Positions 38,041 through 48,935 of a DNA stretch of 64,000 bases are shown here, one piece after another. Each line of letters opens with the position of its first letter. Position 1 is the stretch's first letter. The notes beneath the pieces were generated by a model, which ran no database searches, was not told the DNA's origin, and saw nothing but the letters and a program-made list of their open reading frames with translations. The stretch comes from Desulfovibrio gilichinskyi (GTDB taxonomy: Bacteria > Desulfobacterota > Desulfovibrionia > Desulfovibrionales > Desulfovibrionaceae): the NCBI RefSeq assembly GCF_900177375.1, contig NZ_FWZU01000001.1, forward strand, positions 930,001-994,000. The letters are read 5' to 3'. Made by a program: the position numbers and the translations under genes.

Positions 38041-38056
38041 TGGCACGCCAATTGCC
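38041..38056 (+). promoter_or_regulatory. Sigma-54 promoter of the nifH operon
   Basis: TGGCACGCCAATTGCC is a full match to the -24/-12 consensus (TGGCACG-N4-TTGC). The transcription start is expected near 38067, 45 bases before the nifH ATG. Confidence 0.93.
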
Positions 38057-41400: not shown

Positions 41401-42774
41401 ATGTTACTCAGACACACCCCCACAGAAATTACTGAACGTAAGGCCCTGATGATCAATCCGGCTAAAACATGCCAGCCTATCGGCGCCATGTATGCGGCTC
41501 TGGGCATCCACGGATGTCTACCTCACAGTCACGGTTCACAGGGTTGCTGCGCTTACCACAGATCAGCTTTAACAAGACATTATAAAGAGCCTATTTCTGC
41601 TGCAACAAGCTCCTTCACCGAAGGTGCATCAGTATTCGGCGGACAGGCAAACCTGCTTCAGGCAATTGATAACATCTTCACTGTTTACGAACCGGAAGTA
41701 ATTGCTGTGCACACAACCTGCTTATCTGAAACAATCGGTGACGACCTTAAGCAGATCGCCGACAAAGCTCAGAAAGAAGGCAAAATTCCCGAAGGCAAAT
41801 TTGTCATCGGAGCACCTACTCCAAGTTACGTCGGTTCTCATGTTACGGGATTCAGCAACATGGTCAAAGCAATGGCCCAGCTTGCAACACCCGGCACCAA
41901 AAAGAACGGTAAAGTGAACGTCATTCCCGGATGGGTTGAACCTTCAGACATGGAAGAAATCAAACGCCTCGCATCTGTTGTCGGCGTTGATATCACCCTC
42001 TTCCCTGACACTTCCGGAGTTCTCAACGCTCCTCTGACCGGAGAATACAAAATGTTCCCCGACGGCGGAGTAACAATGAAGGAATTGATGAACACAGGCG
42101 GAGCCATGGGAACACTCGCTTTAGGCGAATGGTGTTCCGCAGATGCCGCCCGCTGGCTTGATTCCAAGTGTAAAGTCCCTTGCACCGTTCTGGACATGCC
42201 TTTCGGACTTAACGCAACAGACCGTTTCATTGATGTTCTTCGCACAGTAGCAGGCGTAACCGTCCCTGAAGCAATTGACGTTGAACGCGGTCAGCTCGTT
42301 GATATGATCTCTGACATGCACCAGTACTTCTACGGCAAGAAAGTAGCTATCTTCGGTGACCCTGATCAGCTCATTTCCATGTGTGAATTCCTTCGTGCCC
42401 TTGATATGCAGCCAGTGCATGTCATCACAGGAACACCGGGTAAAGAGTTTGAAAGACGCATCAAAGAAATCACTGCCGACATGCCTTGTGAAGTTAACGT
42501 TAAAGCCAAAGGCGACATGTTCCTGCTTCACCAGTGGATCAGAAATGAGCCTGTCGATCTGCTCATCGGCAACACATACGGAAAGTATATTGCCCGTGAC
42601 GAAGACATTCCATTCCTTCGCTGGGGATTCCCGATCCTCGACCGTCAGGGACATCAGTACTTCCCGACAGTCGGTTACAAAGGCGGACTTCGCCTTCTTG
42701 AAAAGATTCTCGGCCTGCTTCTGGATCGTAAAGATCGTGACGAACCTGAAGAAAGCTTCGAATTAGTTCTTTAA
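41401..42774 (+). CDS. nifK: Nitrogenase MoFe protein beta chain
   Basis: A 457-residue NifK, short because it lacks the N-terminal extension of aerobic proteobacterial NifK, as in other anaerobes. P-cluster ligands are seen in KTCQPIGAMYAALG, SHGSQGCCAYHRS and TTCLSETIGDDL. It pairs with NifD. The gap after nifK contains a palindromic repeat before the NifB-like gene. Confidence 0.97.
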   Translation: MLLRHTPTEITERKALMINPAKTCQPIGAMYAALGIHGCLPHSHGSQGCCAYHRSALTRHYKEPISAATSSFTEGASVFGGQANLLQAIDNIFTVYEPEVIAVHTTCLSETIGDDLKQIADKAQKEGKIPEGKFVIGAPTPSYVGSHVTGFSNMVKAMAQLATPGTKKNGKVNVIPGWVEPSDMEEIKRLASVVGVDITLFPDTSGVLNAPLTGEYKMFPDGGVTMKELMNTGGAMGTLALGEWCSADAARWLDSKCKVPCTVLDMPFGLNATDRFIDVLRTVAGVTVPEAIDVERGQLVDMISDMHQYFYGKKVAIFGDPDQLISMCEFLRALDMQPVHVITGTPGKEFERRIKEITADMPCEVNVKAKGDMFLLHQWIRNEPVDLLIGNTYGKYIARDEDIPFLRWGFPILDRQGHQYFPTVGYKGGLRLLEKILGLLLDRKDRDEPEESFELVL

Positions 42775-42779
42775 AAAAA

Positions 42780-42850
42780 CAAGACCTCCGGCGTCCGGGA
42801 GAACTTTTTTAAAAAGTTCCCCCGGGCCCTTAAAAAAATTTTATTAGGCT
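42780..42850. repeat. REP-like palindromic element after nifK
   Basis: CCGGGAGAACTTTTT / AAAAAGTTCCCCCGG forms a long hairpin (about 42796-42828) flanked by CCTCCGGCG on the left and a CCCTTAAAAAAATTTTATT stretch on the right. The form resembles intergenic palindromes that recur in Desulfovibrio-type genomes. Only one copy lies in this window. It could act as an mRNA-stability or partial termination point inside the nif operon. Confidence 0.5.
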
Positions 42851-42891: not shown

Positions 42892-44037
42892 ATGACAGAG
42901 TCAAGTTCAACATATTCATCGCACCCCTGCTTCGGGTCAGCTGCCCGCAAGACAGTAGACCGGATACATCTGCCTGTAGCTCCAAGGGCAAATTCACGCA
43001 TCAAATACAGTTCTATGCAGATCATGCAGGAAGCTATTCAGCCTGAAGCGGCTTTAGCATGGCTGGATGACGTCATCGCCGAAGGACGCAAAATTGATGT
43101 TGTCGGAATCACCGGCCCCGGCGATCCATTAGTTCTGCCGGACCTGACTTTCCGCACCTTGGAACTGGTCAAAGCAAAGTATCCAAGTATGTCTCTTTGC
43201 GTAACCACTCTTGGAATCGGAGCCGCTAATCATGCAGAGACACTTGCAAAAATTGGTGTATCCCACGTTACGCTCTTAGTGGATGCCGTATCCAGATCAG
43301 TAATTGAAGAACTTTACGCCTGGATCAGACCTTCCAAGAAAAATGTTCCTTTGGAAGATGCTTCTTCAATCCTGCTCAGCGAACAGTCCGCAGCGGTCAA
43401 AGCTCTTAAAGCCGCAGGTATCACTGTAAAAATCAACACGACAGTATACCCTTCAAATGCTGACCATGTAGGTGAAATTGCTGAAACAATGAAAGCTCTC
43501 GGCGCAGACATTATGGCAATTATTCCTTTCATACCTAAAGATGACGAACAGGAAATTCTGCTTAAAAAAACTGACAGCATCACAATGGCAGCAGCCCGTG
43601 ATCTGGCGGCAAGACACATGGAACTTATGCCGGAATGGGAAGAGTGCGGCGCAGCAGTAAAGACTGAAACAACTTCACTTCTTCCGAAACCGACAAAATC
43701 AAGACCGAATGTTGCGGCTGTAAGTTCCAACGGTATGGAAGTGGACATGCACCTTGGACACGCAGAAAAGATTTTAATCTACGGACCGCGTGATGACGGC
43801 TTAGCCTGCCTGCTTGAAACACGCACAGCCCCGAAAGCCGGTGGCGGCACAGCAAGATGGGAAGAACTGGCAGGAACTCTCAGCGACTGTTTTATCATCC
43901 TTGCTGCCAGTGCCGGAGACAGTCCAAAACAAATTTTGAGCCGACACGGCTTATATGTCGCAGTTACAGACGGCGAAATCGAAGGCACCGTTGATTCACT
44001 CTACGGTGGTGGCAAGAAAAAAAAGTGCAAGAAATAA
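42892..44037 (+). CDS. NifB-like protein without radical-SAM cysteines, with C-terminal NifX-type domain
   Basis: A 381-residue paralogue of the NifB encoded 3.6 kb downstream. It keeps the start HPCF and HLPVAP (residues 26-31), the GITGPGDPL motif, SHVTLLVDAV, KAAGITVKINT and IIPFIP. But the CxxxCxxC radical-SAM motif is replaced: positions 33, 37 and 40 are Ala, Ile and Ser. The HCKRC site of NifB is also lost. The C-terminal 120 residues form a dinitrogenase cofactor-binding (NifX/NafY) domain (VDMHLGHAEKILIYG, LLETRTAPKAGGG). It cannot do radical-SAM chemistry; a role as cofactor carrier, scaffold or NifB partner is inferred. Confidence 0.85.
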   Translation: MTESSSTYSSHPCFGSAARKTVDRIHLPVAPRANSRIKYSSMQIMQEAIQPEAALAWLDDVIAEGRKIDVVGITGPGDPLVLPDLTFRTLELVKAKYPSMSLCVTTLGIGAANHAETLAKIGVSHVTLLVDAVSRSVIEELYAWIRPSKKNVPLEDASSILLSEQSAAVKALKAAGITVKINTTVYPSNADHVGEIAETMKALGADIMAIIPFIPKDDEQEILLKKTDSITMAAARDLAARHMELMPEWEECGAAVKTETTSLLPKPTKSRPNVAAVSSNGMEVDMHLGHAEKILIYGPRDDGLACLLETRTAPKAGGGTARWEELAGTLSDCFIILAASAGDSPKQILSRHGLYVAVTDGEIEGTVDSLYGGGKKKKCKK

Positions 44038-44080: not shown

Positions 44081-44383
44081 ATGGCTACACCGGAAAGAAT
44101 GATAATATGCTGTCAGAGTTTTCGCACATCAGGAAGCCCCAAAGGAATCTGTCACAAATCAACTGAAGGCTTTCTCCAATATATCGAAGAAGAGCTGCTG
44201 GATCGCGGTCTTGATGCAATAGTCGTTGCTACCACCTGCCTTAAACAGTGTGAATCAGGCCCGATCATGGTTGTTCAGCCTGAAAACTGGTGGTTCAAAG
44301 GAGTTGAATCCGAAGGCGCAATTGATGAGATTCTCGACAGCCTTGAAGACGGCGAACCCTGCGAAAAATATTTACTTAGTTAA
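44081..44383 (+). CDS. Thioredoxin-like [2Fe-2S] ferredoxin
   Basis: A 100-residue ferredoxin of the Shethna-I type. Its Cys residues at 10 or 11, 24, 53 and 57 (IICCQSF, GICHKS, TTCLKQCESGPIMVV) match the thioredoxin-fold [2Fe-2S] pattern, and PENWWFKGV follows. Proteins of this family occur in nif operons and are proposed to give electrons to cofactor assembly or nitrogenase. The gene follows AAGGAG and is between the NifB-like gene and the GNAT gene. Confidence 0.88.
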   Translation: MATPERMIICCQSFRTSGSPKGICHKSTEGFLQYIEEELLDRGLDAIVVATTCLKQCESGPIMVVQPENWWFKGVESEGAIDEILDSLEDGEPCEKYLLS

Positions 44384-44397
44384 TCCAGAGAAGACTC

Positions 44398-44853
44398 ATG
44401 CCGGGCACAATTAAAATACGAACCGCAATTCGCGAAGATCTAAGCAGTCTCGCTGACCTGCTGGAAATGCTCTTTTCCATTGAAGCAGACTTTTGCGCAG
44501 ACAGAAAAAGACAACTGCGCGGACTTGCAATGCTGCTTGAAACCAATCGGGGATGTATTCTGGTCGCTGAGGCTGGAAATATTGTGGTCGGCATGTGCTC
44601 TGGACAATTTATGATTTCCACTGCTGAAGGCGGATTATCAGTACTGGTGGAAGATGTGGTTGTACACAAAGACTGGCAGGGGCGCGGCATAGGTAGAATG
44701 CTAATGGACAGTATCGGAACATATGCGAAAGACAACAACGCATCACGTTTGCAACTGCTTGCAGACAGCGAAAATATTCCGGCACTTAACTTCTATAAAA
44801 ATCTCGGGTGGGAACCTACCCGGCTCATTTGTCTGAGAAAGCGTCATTCATAA
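44398..44853 (+). CDS. GNAT family N-acetyltransferase
   Basis: A 151-residue acetyltransferase with the acetyl-CoA loop VVVHKDWQGRGIGRMLMDS (about residues 88-106) and the following LQLLADSENIPALNFYKNLG. The substrate is unknown. It is 14 bases after the ferredoxin and 10 before nifE, with no promoter between, so it is part of the nif transcript. Modification of a Nif protein or small molecule is possible but unproven. Confidence 0.85.
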   Translation: MPGTIKIRTAIREDLSSLADLLEMLFSIEADFCADRKRQLRGLAMLLETNRGCILVAEAGNIVVGMCSGQFMISTAEGGLSVLVEDVVVHKDWQGRGIGRMLMDSIGTYAKDNNASRLQLLADSENIPALNFYKNLGWEPTRLICLRKRHS

Positions 44854-44863
44854 AGGTGAAGCC

Positions 44864-46249
44864 ATGACTAGTGCCATATTAGAAGAAAGAAAAGATCAGA
44901 TACATAGAACAGGACAGGGCGACATTGATATAGCCTGTAACCGTGAATCTCTTGCCGGAGCTGTCAGTCAGCGTGCTTGTGTTTTCTGCGGTTCCCGCGT
45001 TGTTCTTTACCCCATTGCTGACGCACTGCATCTGGTGCACGGCCCCATCGGTTGTGCAGTTTATACATGGGACATTCGCGGCTCTCTTTCAAGCGGACCG
45101 GAACTGCACAGAATGTCCTTTTCAACAGACCTTCAGGAAGTTGATGTCATATTCGGCGGAGAGAAAAAGCTTGAAGCTGCTCTTGACGAACTCATAGACA
45201 GGCACAGCCCCAAAGCGGCATTCGTTTATTCCACATGCATCGTCGGAATAATCGGTGATGACCTTGAAGCTGTATGCAGAAAAATGACTGAGAAGAAAGG
45301 AATCCCTGTTCTTCCTGTCATGTCTGAAGGATTTAAAGGCAGTAAACGCGAAGGTTATCTTGCTGCGTGTAAAGCCATGTTTAAACTTGTCGGAACAGAA
45401 GATGTATCCGATATATCACCGGTTTCAGTCAATATTTTAGGTGATTTCAACCTCGCCGGAGAAATCTGGATTGTAAGAGAATACTTTAGACGCATGGGCG
45501 TAGAAGTCGTTGCCAATATCACCGGTGACGGACGAGTTAAAGATGTCGGTCGCAGTCATGGTGCGGCTTTAAATCTAGTTCAATGTTCGGGTGCGACTCT
45601 CGATTTGGCAAAAATGATAAAAGAAAAGTATGGCAAACCATTCATCCGTGTCTCCTACCTAGGCATTGAAGATATGGCTGAGTCTCTTTATCAGGTGGCT
45701 GATTTCTTTAAGGATATCGACCCGAACATTGTTCAACGCACTCAGGACCTTGTTAAAGATGAACTTTCAAAGCTCATGCCGGAGATTGCCCGCTACCGCA
45801 AAGATCTTGAAGGCAAAAAAGTTGCCATGTATGTCGGTGGATCTTTCAAAGCATTCTCATTGCTCAAAGCATTTCGGCACCTTGGAATGAAAGTCGTTAT
45901 GGTAGGCTCGCAGACCGGAACCAAGGAAGATTATGAAGAGCTGGCTCAGATTGCTGACCCCGGCACAATTTTAGTCGATGATGCCAACCCGCTGGAACTT
46001 TCCGCATTTATCAAGGAAAAAGATGTGGATGTCTTTGTCGGCGGCGTAAAAGAACGCCCTATCGCATTCAAAATGGGTGTCGGCTTCTGCGATCATAACC
46101 ATGAACGCAAAGAAGCACTTGAAGGGTTCGAAGGAATGTTAAATTTTGCCCGTGAAATTCATTCCTCAGTAATGAGTCCGGTATGGTCATTTGTACCGAG
46201 ACGCTCCAACCGCAGAAGTAAGATAGTAAAGGAGGCAGGCAATGAGTAA
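44864..46249 (+). CDS. nifE: FeMo-cofactor scaffold protein NifE
   Basis: A 461-residue NifD homologue. It keeps cluster Cys residues in RACVFCGSRVVL, VHGPIGCAVYTWD and YSTCIVGIIGDD, the block FGGEKKLEAALDEL, and a later CSGATLDLAKMI. It lacks NifD's FeMo-co His in its usual context. With NifN it forms the scaffold on which the NifB cofactor is matured with Mo and homocitrate. Its last 8 bases overlap nifN. Confidence 0.95.
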   Translation: MTSAILEERKDQIHRTGQGDIDIACNRESLAGAVSQRACVFCGSRVVLYPIADALHLVHGPIGCAVYTWDIRGSLSSGPELHRMSFSTDLQEVDVIFGGEKKLEAALDELIDRHSPKAAFVYSTCIVGIIGDDLEAVCRKMTEKKGIPVLPVMSEGFKGSKREGYLAACKAMFKLVGTEDVSDISPVSVNILGDFNLAGEIWIVREYFRRMGVEVVANITGDGRVKDVGRSHGAALNLVQCSGATLDLAKMIKEKYGKPFIRVSYLGIEDMAESLYQVADFFKDIDPNIVQRTQDLVKDELSKLMPEIARYRKDLEGKKVAMYVGGSFKAFSLLKAFRHLGMKVVMVGSQTGTKEDYEELAQIADPGTILVDDANPLELSAFIKEKDVDVFVGGVKERPIAFKMGVGFCDHNHERKEALEGFEGMLNFAREIHSSVMSPVWSFVPRRSNRRSKIVKEAGNE

Positions 46250-47615
46250 CGTTAAAACTAAAGTGGAAAGAGCTAATTTTGTTTCCACCACCAACGCCTG
46301 CAAGCTTTGCACGCCACTCGGGGCCTCACTGGCTTTCCGCGGAGTTGAAGGAGCCATCCCGTTCCAGCACGGTTCACAGGGATGCTCAACATATATGAGA
46401 CGATATATTATCAGTCATTTCCGCGAACCGGTTGATATTGCTTCGTCTGCACTCGGCGAAAAAAATGCCATTTACGGCGGCGGACCGAATCTTAAAAAAG
46501 GCATCTTGAATGTCATGAAAAAGTACGATCCGCAGCTTATCGGTATCGCAACAACCTGCCTTACCGAAACCATCGGCGATGACGTTCCAAGAATTCTATT
46601 TGAATTCCGCAAGGAATTCGGTGATCTTAACCTGCCTGAATTAGTCAGTGTTTCGACCCCGAGTTACAACGGAACGCACATGGACGGCTGGCATGGAGCT
46701 GTATGTTCATTAGTCGAACAGCTCTGCACAGAGCAGGCTGAAAAAGACGGCAGTGTGAACATTCTTCCGAACATGATTTCCTGTGAAGATATTCGTGAAC
46801 TGCGCGATATTTGTGAAAGATTTGATGTAGAAGCTACTATTTTACCTGACATTTCTGAAACTCTGGACGCTCCGGCACTTGAGGATTATGTAAAAATTCC
46901 TACAGGCGGAACCCCGATTAAGAGCATTAAAGAAATGTCAGGAGCCAGTGCGACAATCGAATTCGGTCGCTGCCTTGGAGATAAAACCGGCGGTGTTGCT
47001 CTTGAAAAGAAATTCGGAGTCAAAAATTATCGCATAGGCATTCCTATGGGGCTGCGTGAAACAGACGCACTCTTTGATACACTTGAAGAAATAACCGGAA
47101 CCCCTACTCCGCGTCGTTATGAACTGGAACGCGGTCGTTTGATCGACGCATATGTCGATGGACACAAATATGTTTTTGGAAAGCGCGCAATTGTTTACGG
47201 CGAAGAAGATCTGGTGACAGGACTCTGCTCTTTCCTGAGTGAAATAGGAGTCGAAGTTGTGCTCGCCGGAACCGGAGCACGCGGCAAAGGTCTGGCAAAA
47301 GCAATTGCTGCTGCAACCGAAGGCGTAGCCAGAAAAATGCCTATAGTTCGCGAAGGCGTAGACTTTCACGACATAGCTGACGAGGCTGAAGAATTGAAAC
47401 CGGACCTGATGATCGGTCATTCCAAGGGTTATAAATACGCAAAAGCATGGAATATCCCGCTTATCCGCGTAGGTTTCCCGATTCATGACCGTTTCGGAGG
47501 TCAGCGCATTCTTCATATCGGATACAGCGGAGCACTCTCACTTTTCGATAAAATCGTAAACTCCGTACTTGAAAAGAAACAGAGCGACAGCGATATCGGC
47601 TACGGATACCTGTAA
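46242..47615 (+). CDS. nifN: FeMo-cofactor scaffold protein NifN
   Basis: A 457-residue NifK homologue with NACKLCTPLGASLAFRGVEG, FQHGSQGCSTYMRRY and TTCLTETIGDDV. The motif SHFREPVDIASSALGEKN is typical of NifN. It starts within the nifE end (8-base overlap), which favours equal synthesis of the two scaffold chains. No NifX domain is fused, unlike some NifN-B or NifN-X forms. Confidence 0.94.
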   Translation: MSNVKTKVERANFVSTTNACKLCTPLGASLAFRGVEGAIPFQHGSQGCSTYMRRYIISHFREPVDIASSALGEKNAIYGGGPNLKKGILNVMKKYDPQLIGIATTCLTETIGDDVPRILFEFRKEFGDLNLPELVSVSTPSYNGTHMDGWHGAVCSLVEQLCTEQAEKDGSVNILPNMISCEDIRELRDICERFDVEATILPDISETLDAPALEDYVKIPTGGTPIKSIKEMSGASATIEFGRCLGDKTGGVALEKKFGVKNYRIGIPMGLRETDALFDTLEEITGTPTPRRYELERGRLIDAYVDGHKYVFGKRAIVYGEEDLVTGLCSFLSEIGVEVVLAGTGARGKGLAKAIAAATEGVARKMPIVREGVDFHDIADEAEELKPDLMIGHSKGYKYAKAWNIPLIRVGFPIHDRFGGQRILHIGYSGALSLFDKIVNSVLEKKQSDSDIGYGYL

Positions 47616-47666: not shown

Positions 47667-48935
47667 ATGAAAGATACAACCAAGCACCCATGCTTCAACA
47701 AGGAAACAGCAGGCTCATGCGGCCGTGTACATCTCCCCGTCGCACCTAAGTGTAATATTCAGTGCAACTACTGTAATAGAAAATATGATTGCGTAAATGA
47801 ATCACGCCCGGGCGTAACCAGCGGAGTGCTGAAGCCGTTTCAGGCCGCAGAATATATGGATCAGGTTCTTACAAAAGAACCGCGTATCACGGTTGCAGGC
47901 ATCGCCGGCCCCGGTGACCCTTTTGCAAACCCTGCTGAAACACTTGAGACGATGCGTCTGCTCAACAAAAAACATCCGCATCTTCTTTTCTGTCTGTCCT
48001 CCAACGGCATGGGCATACTGCCTTATCTGGATGACATCAAAGAACTTGGAGTATCACACGTAACTATTACCATCAGCGCAGTAGACCCTAAAATCGGTGC
48101 AAAACTTTATGCATGGGTTAAAGACGGAAATGTTGTGTACCGCGGCGAACAAGGTGCTGAAGTACTCTTAGAACGCCAGCTTGCAGCAATCAAAGGACTT
48201 AAGGAACGCGGAATTATCGTTAAAATAAACTCTATCGTTGTTCCCGGTATTAACGAAGACCATCTGGTTGAAGTTGCAAAAGTCGTTTCAGAGCTAGGAG
48301 CGGACATCCAGAACATGATTCCCCTTAAGCCGACAGCAGATACTCTTTTTGCAGACGTGAAAGAGCCAGGGCATGAAATAATCGGACCTCTGCGCAAAGA
48401 AGCAGGTAAAGTCATCGATCAGATGACGCATTGCAAGCGTTGCCGCGCTGACGCTGTTGGACTTCTCGGTGATGATCAGTCCGCATCTCTTTGCGGAACT
48501 CTTCAGGCATGTTCTAAGCTTACTCCGATTGAACCTAAAGCTGCGCGTCCCTACGTTGCTGTTGCCAGCCGTGAAGGAATGCTGATTAATCAGCACTTAG
48601 GTGAAGCTAAATCATTTTATATCTGGGGTGAAGGCGAAAATGGAACCTATCGTCTTATAGAAGAACGTCAGGCACCTAAATCCGGCTGCGGTCCGAAACG
48701 CTGGGCAGACCTTGCCGCGGCACTTAAAGATTGCCGCGCAGTTTTATGCGCCGCAGTAGGCCAGACACCGCAGCTCGCCCTTGAAGAAAACGGAATCGAC
48801 TGCCATGTCGTAAGCGGGTTTGTTGAAGATGGATTAACCGCTGTCTACACTTCAGGTGATCTAAGTAAATTAAGCGGTCGCAGAGGCGGAATCGCAGGCG
48901 GCTGTTGCACCGGAACAGGTACAAGCTGCGGCTAG
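47667..48935 (+). CDS. nifB: Radical-SAM NifB cofactor synthase with NifX domain
   Basis: A 422-residue NifB. HPCF starts the protein, then the intact CxxxCxxC motif (KCNIQCNYCNRKYDC) binds the SAM cluster. GIAGPGDPF is the SAM-binding GGE-equivalent, and HCKRCRADAVG carries ligands for the additional clusters. The C-terminal 120 residues (ASREGMLINQHLGEAKSFYI, RQAPKSGCGPKRW) are a NifX-type carrier domain. It fuses two 4Fe-4S units and adds carbide to form NifB-co. It is last in the operon; a terminator follows. Confidence 0.96.
   Translation: MKDTTKHPCFNKETAGSCGRVHLPVAPKCNIQCNYCNRKYDCVNESRPGVTSGVLKPFQAAEYMDQVLTKEPRITVAGIAGPGDPFANPAETLETMRLLNKKHPHLLFCLSSNGMGILPYLDDIKELGVSHVTITISAVDPKIGAKLYAWVKDGNVVYRGEQGAEVLLERQLAAIKGLKERGIIVKINSIVVPGINEDHLVEVAKVVSELGADIQNMIPLKPTADTLFADVKEPGHEIIGPLRKEAGKVIDQMTHCKRCRADAVGLLGDDQSASLCGTLQACSKLTPIEPKAARPYVAVASREGMLINQHLGEAKSFYIWGEGENGTYRLIEERQAPKSGCGPKRWADLAAALKDCRAVLCAAVGQTPQLALEENGIDCHVVSGFVEDGLTAVYTSGDLSKLSGRRGGIAGGCCTGTGTSCG

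Follow-up and report, generated by a model that had tools for sequence, protein, structure and literature searches.

We describe a gene in the nitrogenase operon of Desulfovibrio gilichinskyi that encodes a NifB-derived protein of 381 amino acids without the cysteines of the radical-SAM cluster, and we find that it belongs to a conserved clade of such proteins. The gene occupies positions 42892..44037 on the plus strand (as do the genes and protein features given below) of the 64,000-nucleotide stretch that was analyzed, hereafter the window. The protein is probably a non-catalytic carrier or helper for the nitrogenase cofactor and not an enzyme: as its sequence lacks a SAM cluster, it would not be expected to synthesize NifB-co from two [4Fe-4S] clusters and SAM. 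The best explanation, which we hold with moderate confidence, is that it serves NifB-co or FeMo-co as an escort or a docking protein.

The open reading frame begins with ATG and runs without an internal stop, and its product shares 32% identity over 397 columns with the complete NifB encoded at 47667-48935. The Pfam Radical_SAM model matches at 32.6 bits, above its gathering threshold, in an alignment that begins after the site of the cluster motif, and Nitro_FeMo-Co (PF02579) scores 32.9 bits against a gathering threshold of 26.3. On the NifB model TIGR01290 the protein reaches 170.4 bits, below the cut-off of 343.65, and three other paralogues reach 118.9-171.5 bits. The NifX model TIGR02663 returned no match for the window protein and 24.1 bits, against a cut-off of 112, for one paralogue (L079); no NCBIfam model scored above its cut-off among the four SAM-less paralogues scanned. 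When the genome was searched with the window protein, only the protein itself and the complete NifB were found. A preliminary description made from the sequence had called the gene an intact NifB homologue of 381 codons with a NifX-type C-terminal domain and the motifs HPCF, HLPVAP and GPGDP, and all of this stands.

Three parts can be distinguished. Residues 1-252 (42892..43647) form a radical-SAM-like barrel of the NifB type without CxxxCxxC, and about residues 273-370 (43708..44001) form a NifX-like (Nitro_FeMo-Co) domain. The lysine-rich tail GGGKKKKCKK (44005..44034) is common in the clade, a GGGKKxK form being widespread among the paralogues. NifBs of these bacteria usually end in a Cys/Gly-rich tail (48870-48935 in the window), whereas that of the paralogue is lysine-rich. 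Modeled alone with AlphaFold2 from a 57-row alignment, the window protein gave a mean pLDDT of 90.6 and a pTM of 0.86, and Foldseek placed the model closest to NifB 6y1x (E 7.2e-22, TM 0.84 on the target), followed by 7bi7 and 7jmb. The predicted fold is NifB-like.

According to the available text of PMC7145814 and PMC6053413, NifB of Methanosarcina acetivorans (MaNifB) holds its SAM cluster by C50, C54 and C57, its K1 cluster by C30, C63, C129 and His43, and its K2 cluster by C264, C274 and C277. We scored 15 positions in MaNifB numbering, with C264 left out, in an alignment of 155 proteins in which gapped rows leave the K2 region uncertain; all 15, including the three SAM-cluster cysteines, are invariant in 65/65 NifBs. 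In the window protein the former CxxxCxxC site (residues 33-40, 42988..43011) reads A33, I37 and S40, the K1 ligand C63 has disappeared with the stretch that carried it, and the second cluster site, HCxxC in NifB, reads EWEEC (residues 248-252, 43633..43647), with C274 lost and the C277 equivalent, Cys252, as its sole cysteine. The preliminary description had noticed the replacement of both motifs; its statement that all cluster ligands were lost is wrong, because the window protein keeps Cys13 (42928..42930, equivalent to the K1 ligand C30), His26 (42967..42969, the K1 nitrogen ligand His43) and Cys103 (43198..43200, the K1 ligand C129) as well as Cys252. Measured against the NifB motif list in the portion of PMC5715403 at hand (HPC, ExRP, AGPG, TxTxN, Cx2CRxDAxG and Cx3Cx2C), the protein has HPC (H11-P12-C13), has lost ExRP in the deleted stretch, reads TGPG for AGPG with GPG retained, reads EWEECGAA with a single Cys for Cx2CRxDAxG, and reads TLLVD for TxTxN, a motif whose Asn is also absent from the complete NifB of the window (TITIS).

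The same losses run through a set of 90 distinct paralogues, the window's included, which comprises sequences of at least 300 amino acids that were told apart from NifB by whichever BLAST score was the better. Two short frames (L053, L036) and three duplicate rows were dropped from the initial set, and further short or duplicate rows from the 155-protein alignment; paralogues collected later (L147-L154, L158, L162, L163, L168) stand outside the ligand and conservation counts. Neither CxxxCxxC nor HCxxC occurs in any of the 90. None of the SAM-cluster cysteines is present in 87, and a single one is present in the other three (L071, L084, L110); C63 is missing in all 90 and C274 in 89.

The part of the protein that has been kept best is the NifX-like domain. 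Its profile matches NafY 1p90 (E 9.3e-8) and NifX 9ian_E (E 8.8e-6), and counting along these alignments places His287 (43750..43752) at residue 35 of the NifX chain and at chain residue 23 of 1p90, the position of H121 given that C125 is chain residue 27. In the accessible text of PMC13128457, NifX H35 coordinates NifB-co in the NifENX cryo-EM structure, and in that of PMC8496260, NafY H121 is the key FeMo-co ligand while C166, to which Cys333 corresponds by the same count, is unimportant for FeMo-co binding. His287 sits in HLG, at the HFG motif of the NifX/NafY family; it is kept in 90/90 paralogues, as are Cys333 and Trp323, and HLG recurs in 12 paralogues collected later (in L148, which was cut at 520 residues in the ligand-scoring alignment, it was read separately). 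At a level of at least 90% conservation, the 90 paralogues retain 26 of 252 barrel positions and 41 of 106 in the NifX-like domain, and the 65 NifBs 106 of 262 and 35 of 108. In the paralogues the focus of conservation has shifted out of the barrel and into the NifX-like domain, a comparison that holds within each set because the two sets differ in diversity.

A carrier role fits best because the best conserved part is the NifX-like domain with its cofactor-ligand histidine. We propose that a full-length two-domain NifB, barrel and NifX-like domain together, was duplicated and gave rise to a non-catalytic cofactor escort. His287 would hold an 8Fe species, either NifB-co received from NifB or finished FeMo-co, much as NifX H35 and NafY H121 do, and the cofactor would be handed on to NifEN or apo-NifDK. 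The dead barrel would act as a docking and shielding body, and the lysine-rich tail may favor an anionic cluster or the surface of a partner. That the protein descends from NifB suggests NifEN as this partner. The place of the gene suggests NifDK by analogy, since in Azotobacter and Klebsiella nifY also comes right after nifK. The C-terminus of NifX binds a positive patch on NifE in the NifENX structure (PMC13128457, in the text available); the lysine-rich tail is opposite in charge, so the paralogue cannot dock as NifX does. Several observations count against the escort reading: TIGR02663 is unmatched, other PF02579 carriers may exist, full operons occur without the gene, and NifB itself has the same histidine and NifX-like domain. 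The linkage to a ferredoxin gene could also point to a redox role instead.

The leading alternative, which we regard as possible but rather unlikely, is a structural partner or regulator of the true NifB or of NifEN, in which the dead barrel would join a hetero-complex to tune or stabilize it and cofactor holding would be secondary. Clostridial NifN-B fusions provide a precedent for association of NifB with NifEN, and the barrel keeps its predicted fold and is under purifying selection of its own (YN00 dN/dS 0.12 in the window pair). Among the positions invariant in the 57-row paralogue alignment are W144, R146, P147, H287, R322, W323 and C333; W144, R322, W323 and C333 are common to NifB and P147 is not. 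The string W144-x-R146-P147 is invariant in 76/76 paralogues, and its P147 site is Asp in 30/33 NifBs. Such features would not be needed if the barrel were a mere linker. However, strong conservation falls mostly in the NifX-like domain, with the 26 of 252 barrel positions noted above, and the gene does not adjoin nifB. A bolder version of the escort reading, which we consider rather doubtful, would make the protein a duplicated cofactor synthase turned dedicated receiver, and with it a class of nitrogenase assembly protein absent from the papers searched: it would take the 8Fe core from NifB on its NifX-like domain, keep the core pressed to what is left of the K1 site in the dead barrel and pass it to NifEN or apo-NifDK, with the ferredoxin as redox partner.

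The leftover ligands raise an alternative that applies to Desulfovibrionaceae, namely that C13, H26, C103 and C252 hold one K1-type [4Fe-4S] cluster, which would be stored or donated to NifB. Under the assignments cited above, three of these residues correspond to K1 ligands of MaNifB. Taken singly, the ligand residue is kept in 56 of the 90 paralogues at C30, in 52 at His43, in 53 at C129 and in 59 at C277; all four occur together in 43, the window's among them, and none in 20. These counts suggest correlated loss, but only 4-5 independent pairs, too few for a test, lie on well-supported branches, and we did not retain that pattern. All 90 paralogues lack C63, the third cysteine of K1, and the four-ligand site is not a shared function because the set has been lost in many members outside Desulfovibrionaceae and some inside. 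We consider such a residual scaffold unlikely.

Turning to the operon, the gene lies, as the preliminary description had placed it, between nifK (41401..42774, identified by its match to nif genes annotated in N. vulgaris) and a gene for a 2Fe-2S ferredoxin (44081..44383, assigned from a match to NF041612 below cut-off and from synteny). A GNAT acetyltransferase gene (44398..44853, PF00583), often next in the operon, is followed by nifE (44864..46249), nifN (46242..47615) and the complete nifB (47667..48935; TIGR01290 388.9 bits, above cut-off), which has every scored ligand. This GNAT acetyltransferase gene is conserved in many such operons. We compared 65 paralogue loci of at least 8 kb, with the window included and two duplicates excluded. 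nifK lies at most 500 bp upstream of the paralogue in 62/65, and a 2Fe-2S ferredoxin gene at most 500 bp downstream in 65/65. Counting contig ends as misses, the GNAT gene is found within 1.5 kb downstream in 46/65, nifE within 3 kb in 47/65 and nifB within 7 kb in 47/65. The three loci without an adjacent nifK come from Candidatus Electrothrix (L035, L040) and a member of Desulfobulbaceae (L038), and in each of them the paralogue, ferredoxin and GNAT genes are grouped away from nifK; in L035 a homocitrate-synthase-like gene comes next after this group. The gene is accessory, outside the minimal nif set, because several full operons do without it: nifK adjoins the ferredoxin gene directly in seven genomes (L080, L082, L083, L157, L160, L164, L167) and in two N. 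vulgaris plasmid records with a full nif operon.

This constancy of the ferredoxin gene, directly downstream in 65/65 loci even where nifK is elsewhere (L035, L038, L040), could mean that the two proteins form a redox or protection module for nitrogenase to which descent from NifB is incidental. The ferredoxin gene, however, also occurs in the paralogue-free operons, and we judge this reading quite unlikely. Two further roles were considered and set aside. No separate nifX gene was seen in the window operon, and the idea that the paralogue substitutes for a missing NifX is unsupported: at this locus, nothing separates nifK from the ferredoxin gene in the paralogue-free operons either. The genome has six PF02579 matches, some of them weaker and unlisted; of three that are listed, contig C2 carries two and contig C4 one, at a distance from the operon, so other cofactor carriers may exist. 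Cofactor sorting for an alternative nitrogenase was rejected, as AnfG/VnfG exceeds its cut-off in 22 of the 257 genomes of the family, the window's not being one of them; there is no general link, because only 8 of the 22 are among the paralogue carriers identified by profile search or by reading of loci.

Two features of the intergenic DNA were also recorded. In the gap between nifK and the paralogue gene (42790-42829), a hairpin with GAACTTTTTTAAAAAGTTC has a predicted fold of -28.8 kcal/mol (z -1.77, with 12 of 200 shuffles as good); it is single in the window, and the intergenic stretch is unrepeated in the genome. At 38041-38056, TGGCAC-N5-TTGC forms a -24/-12-like site 55 bases before nifH with one mismatch to the pattern, yet the number of such sigma-54 sites in the window equals that expected by chance, and the pattern was set aside.

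The paralogue evolves faster than the core nif genes. In the closest pair it is 89% identical, compared with 92% for the GNAT gene and 95-99% for nifH, nifD, nifK, nifE, nifN and nifB. It is nevertheless constrained: over nine pairs (seven SAM-less and two of the sister branch described below, partly non-independent since L094 is used twice), NG86 dN/dS ranges over 0.07-0.33 for the gene and 0.03-0.16 for nifB in the same pairs, and all seven SAM-less pairs are well below 1. For the window and its closest relative, the gene has a dN/dS of 0.156 (NG86) or 0.125 (YN00), with similar YN00 values for the barrel (0.122) and the NifX-like domain (0.126). The view of a retained non-catalytic paralogue put forward in the preliminary description is therefore upheld by selection, by a conserved place and by membership in one clade; the same evidence rules out a passing mutant or pseudogene. 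If the gene were a dispensable copy, or one in slow decay that merely travels with the operon, its faster evolution and its absence from some operons would be explained. This is very improbable, since every pair has a dN/dS below 1, the listed paralogues are free of internal stop codons and the gene has persisted for long in one place and across several families.

The trees show that the SAM-less paralogues form one clade, a grouping that the preliminary description had proposed to check. With 57 paralogues (a set thinned by similarity) and 27 NifBs, all paralogues fall on one side of a branch with support of 100/100; in a tree of 32 of the 57 with an outgroup of five NifBs from other phyla they form a clade (100/99), whose first two branches consist entirely of family f1 with the other families nested inside. 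Family and genus labels such as f1 and g1 are codes, and f1 is Desulfovibrionaceae because named records are identical to f1 loci. We infer from these sequences a duplication in or near Desulfovibrionaceae, with later transfer of the gene together with the operon.

According to the preliminary description, CxxxCxxC at this place in close relatives would make the gene a passing mutant copy. Genes that keep it do occur in the same nifK-ferredoxin interval in four genomes of two other genera (G093 and G268 of g13, G244 and G234 of g36), but these form a sister branch, only distantly related to the window gene, in which further ligands of NifB are lacking. Their four proteins (L145, L146, L155, L161) are excluded from the counts of 90 paralogues and 65 NifBs. 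Ligand scoring, which covers three of the four genomes, shows that G093 and G268 have lost the C30 and C129 equivalents and kept C63, His43, C274 and C277, and that G244 has kept C63 and lost C30, His43, C129, C274 and C277; in L155 K2 ligands are gone besides K1 ligands. The histidine of the NifX-like domain is kept in all four proteins, and Cys333 is not kept in G244. The NifB ligand set was thus dismantled in different ways, as the sister branch keeps CxxxCxxC yet has lost other ligands. In a further tree, with 21 of the 57 paralogues, L158, L154 and three sister-branch proteins, the three are the sister group of the paralogues (these 26 rows together 100/99, sister group 100/99, paralogues 99/94), with a bootstrap not fully settled and L154 as a long branch.

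The gene is widespread among sulfate reducers and bacteria related to them. An order-level search found a match at E 1e-20 or better in 157 of 297 genomes. A profile search of 257 family genomes found one in 142; the best match is at least 372 bits in 61 and at most 363 in the next, and reading the loci identified nine more carriers below this gap (G084, G053, G110, G269, G287, G211, G236, G116 and, in part, G267). In G282 the paralogue is interrupted by a contig end. A phylum-level search gave matches in 88 of 395 genomes, and the paralogue type (at least 40% identity to the L036 query) occurs in families f20, f21, f69, f82, f84 and f107 in addition to f1. Named carriers include Desulfobulbus rhabdoformis, Desulfopila, Desulfocapsa, Desulforhopalus and the cable bacterium Candidatus Electrothrix; four named records bear other taxon labels (L054 Pseudomonadota, L047 and L048 Proteobacteria, L051 Deltaproteobacteria). 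Some frames are unusually long. In genus g3 (G011, G016, G026, G031, G059), NifB-like matches lie within open frames of 928-963 codons, perhaps fusions, and in L156 and L157, which have long frames, NifN and NifB are separate and unfused. Paralogues of genus g2 (L147, L148, L150-L153) have stop-to-stop frames of 462-674 codons, compared with 448 in L158 of the same genus.

The route of NifB-co from NifB to NifEN and the delivery of FeMo-co to NifDK are active questions, studied mainly in Azotobacter. A conserved NifB free of catalysis is a natural separation-of-function protein, in which, in anaerobic bacteria, cofactor holding and docking can be studied apart from radical chemistry. The sister branch, with its CxxxCxxC retained, offers intermediates on the way from a radical-SAM enzyme to a pseudoenzyme. 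There is also a warning for annotation: the paralogues partially match NifB models, and surveys that deduce diazotrophy from gene content should not take them for NifB. In titles and abstract openings, in a search mostly of openly accessible papers, we found no description of a conserved SAM-less NifB. The available text of PMC5715403 reports that 390 putative NifBs were cut to 289 by motif, and that most of those set aside were without Cx3Cx2C, all had a NifX domain and were taken for NifX; SAM-less paralogues may be among them, though none is described in that text.

Compared with known systems, the paralogue is closest to two-domain NifB (TIGR01290), which it resembles in full-length homology, in its domains and their order and in predicted fold. 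Unlike NifB, it has no SAM-cluster motif and its K1 and K2 sites are incomplete, and it scores well under the model's cut-off. The extra NifB copies of Paenibacillus, NifB3 and NifB4, are thought inactive, and two NifB3 are without Cx2CRxDAxG; unlike the paralogues, they have Cx3Cx2C among their conserved motifs, pseudogenes are suggested, and the text available of PMC8287671 describes no conserved SAM-less clade. The pseudo-SAM/SPASM proteins of TIGR04347, compared by name only, are likewise radical-SAM relatives called pseudo-SAM, but are by name of the SPASM type, with nothing there that points to nitrogenase. With NifX, the NifB-co carrier, the paralogue shares a homologous domain in which H35 aligns with His287; NifX, however, is small and barrel-free with a C-terminal anchor to NifE in the structural report cited above, whereas the paralogue combines a dead barrel with a lysine-rich tail. 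NafY/NifY, the chaperone of FeMo-co and apo-NifDK, is alike in its homologous core domain, in H121 aligned to His287 and in being a two-domain escort, and differs in its N-terminal domain, which in NafY is something other than a radical-SAM barrel.
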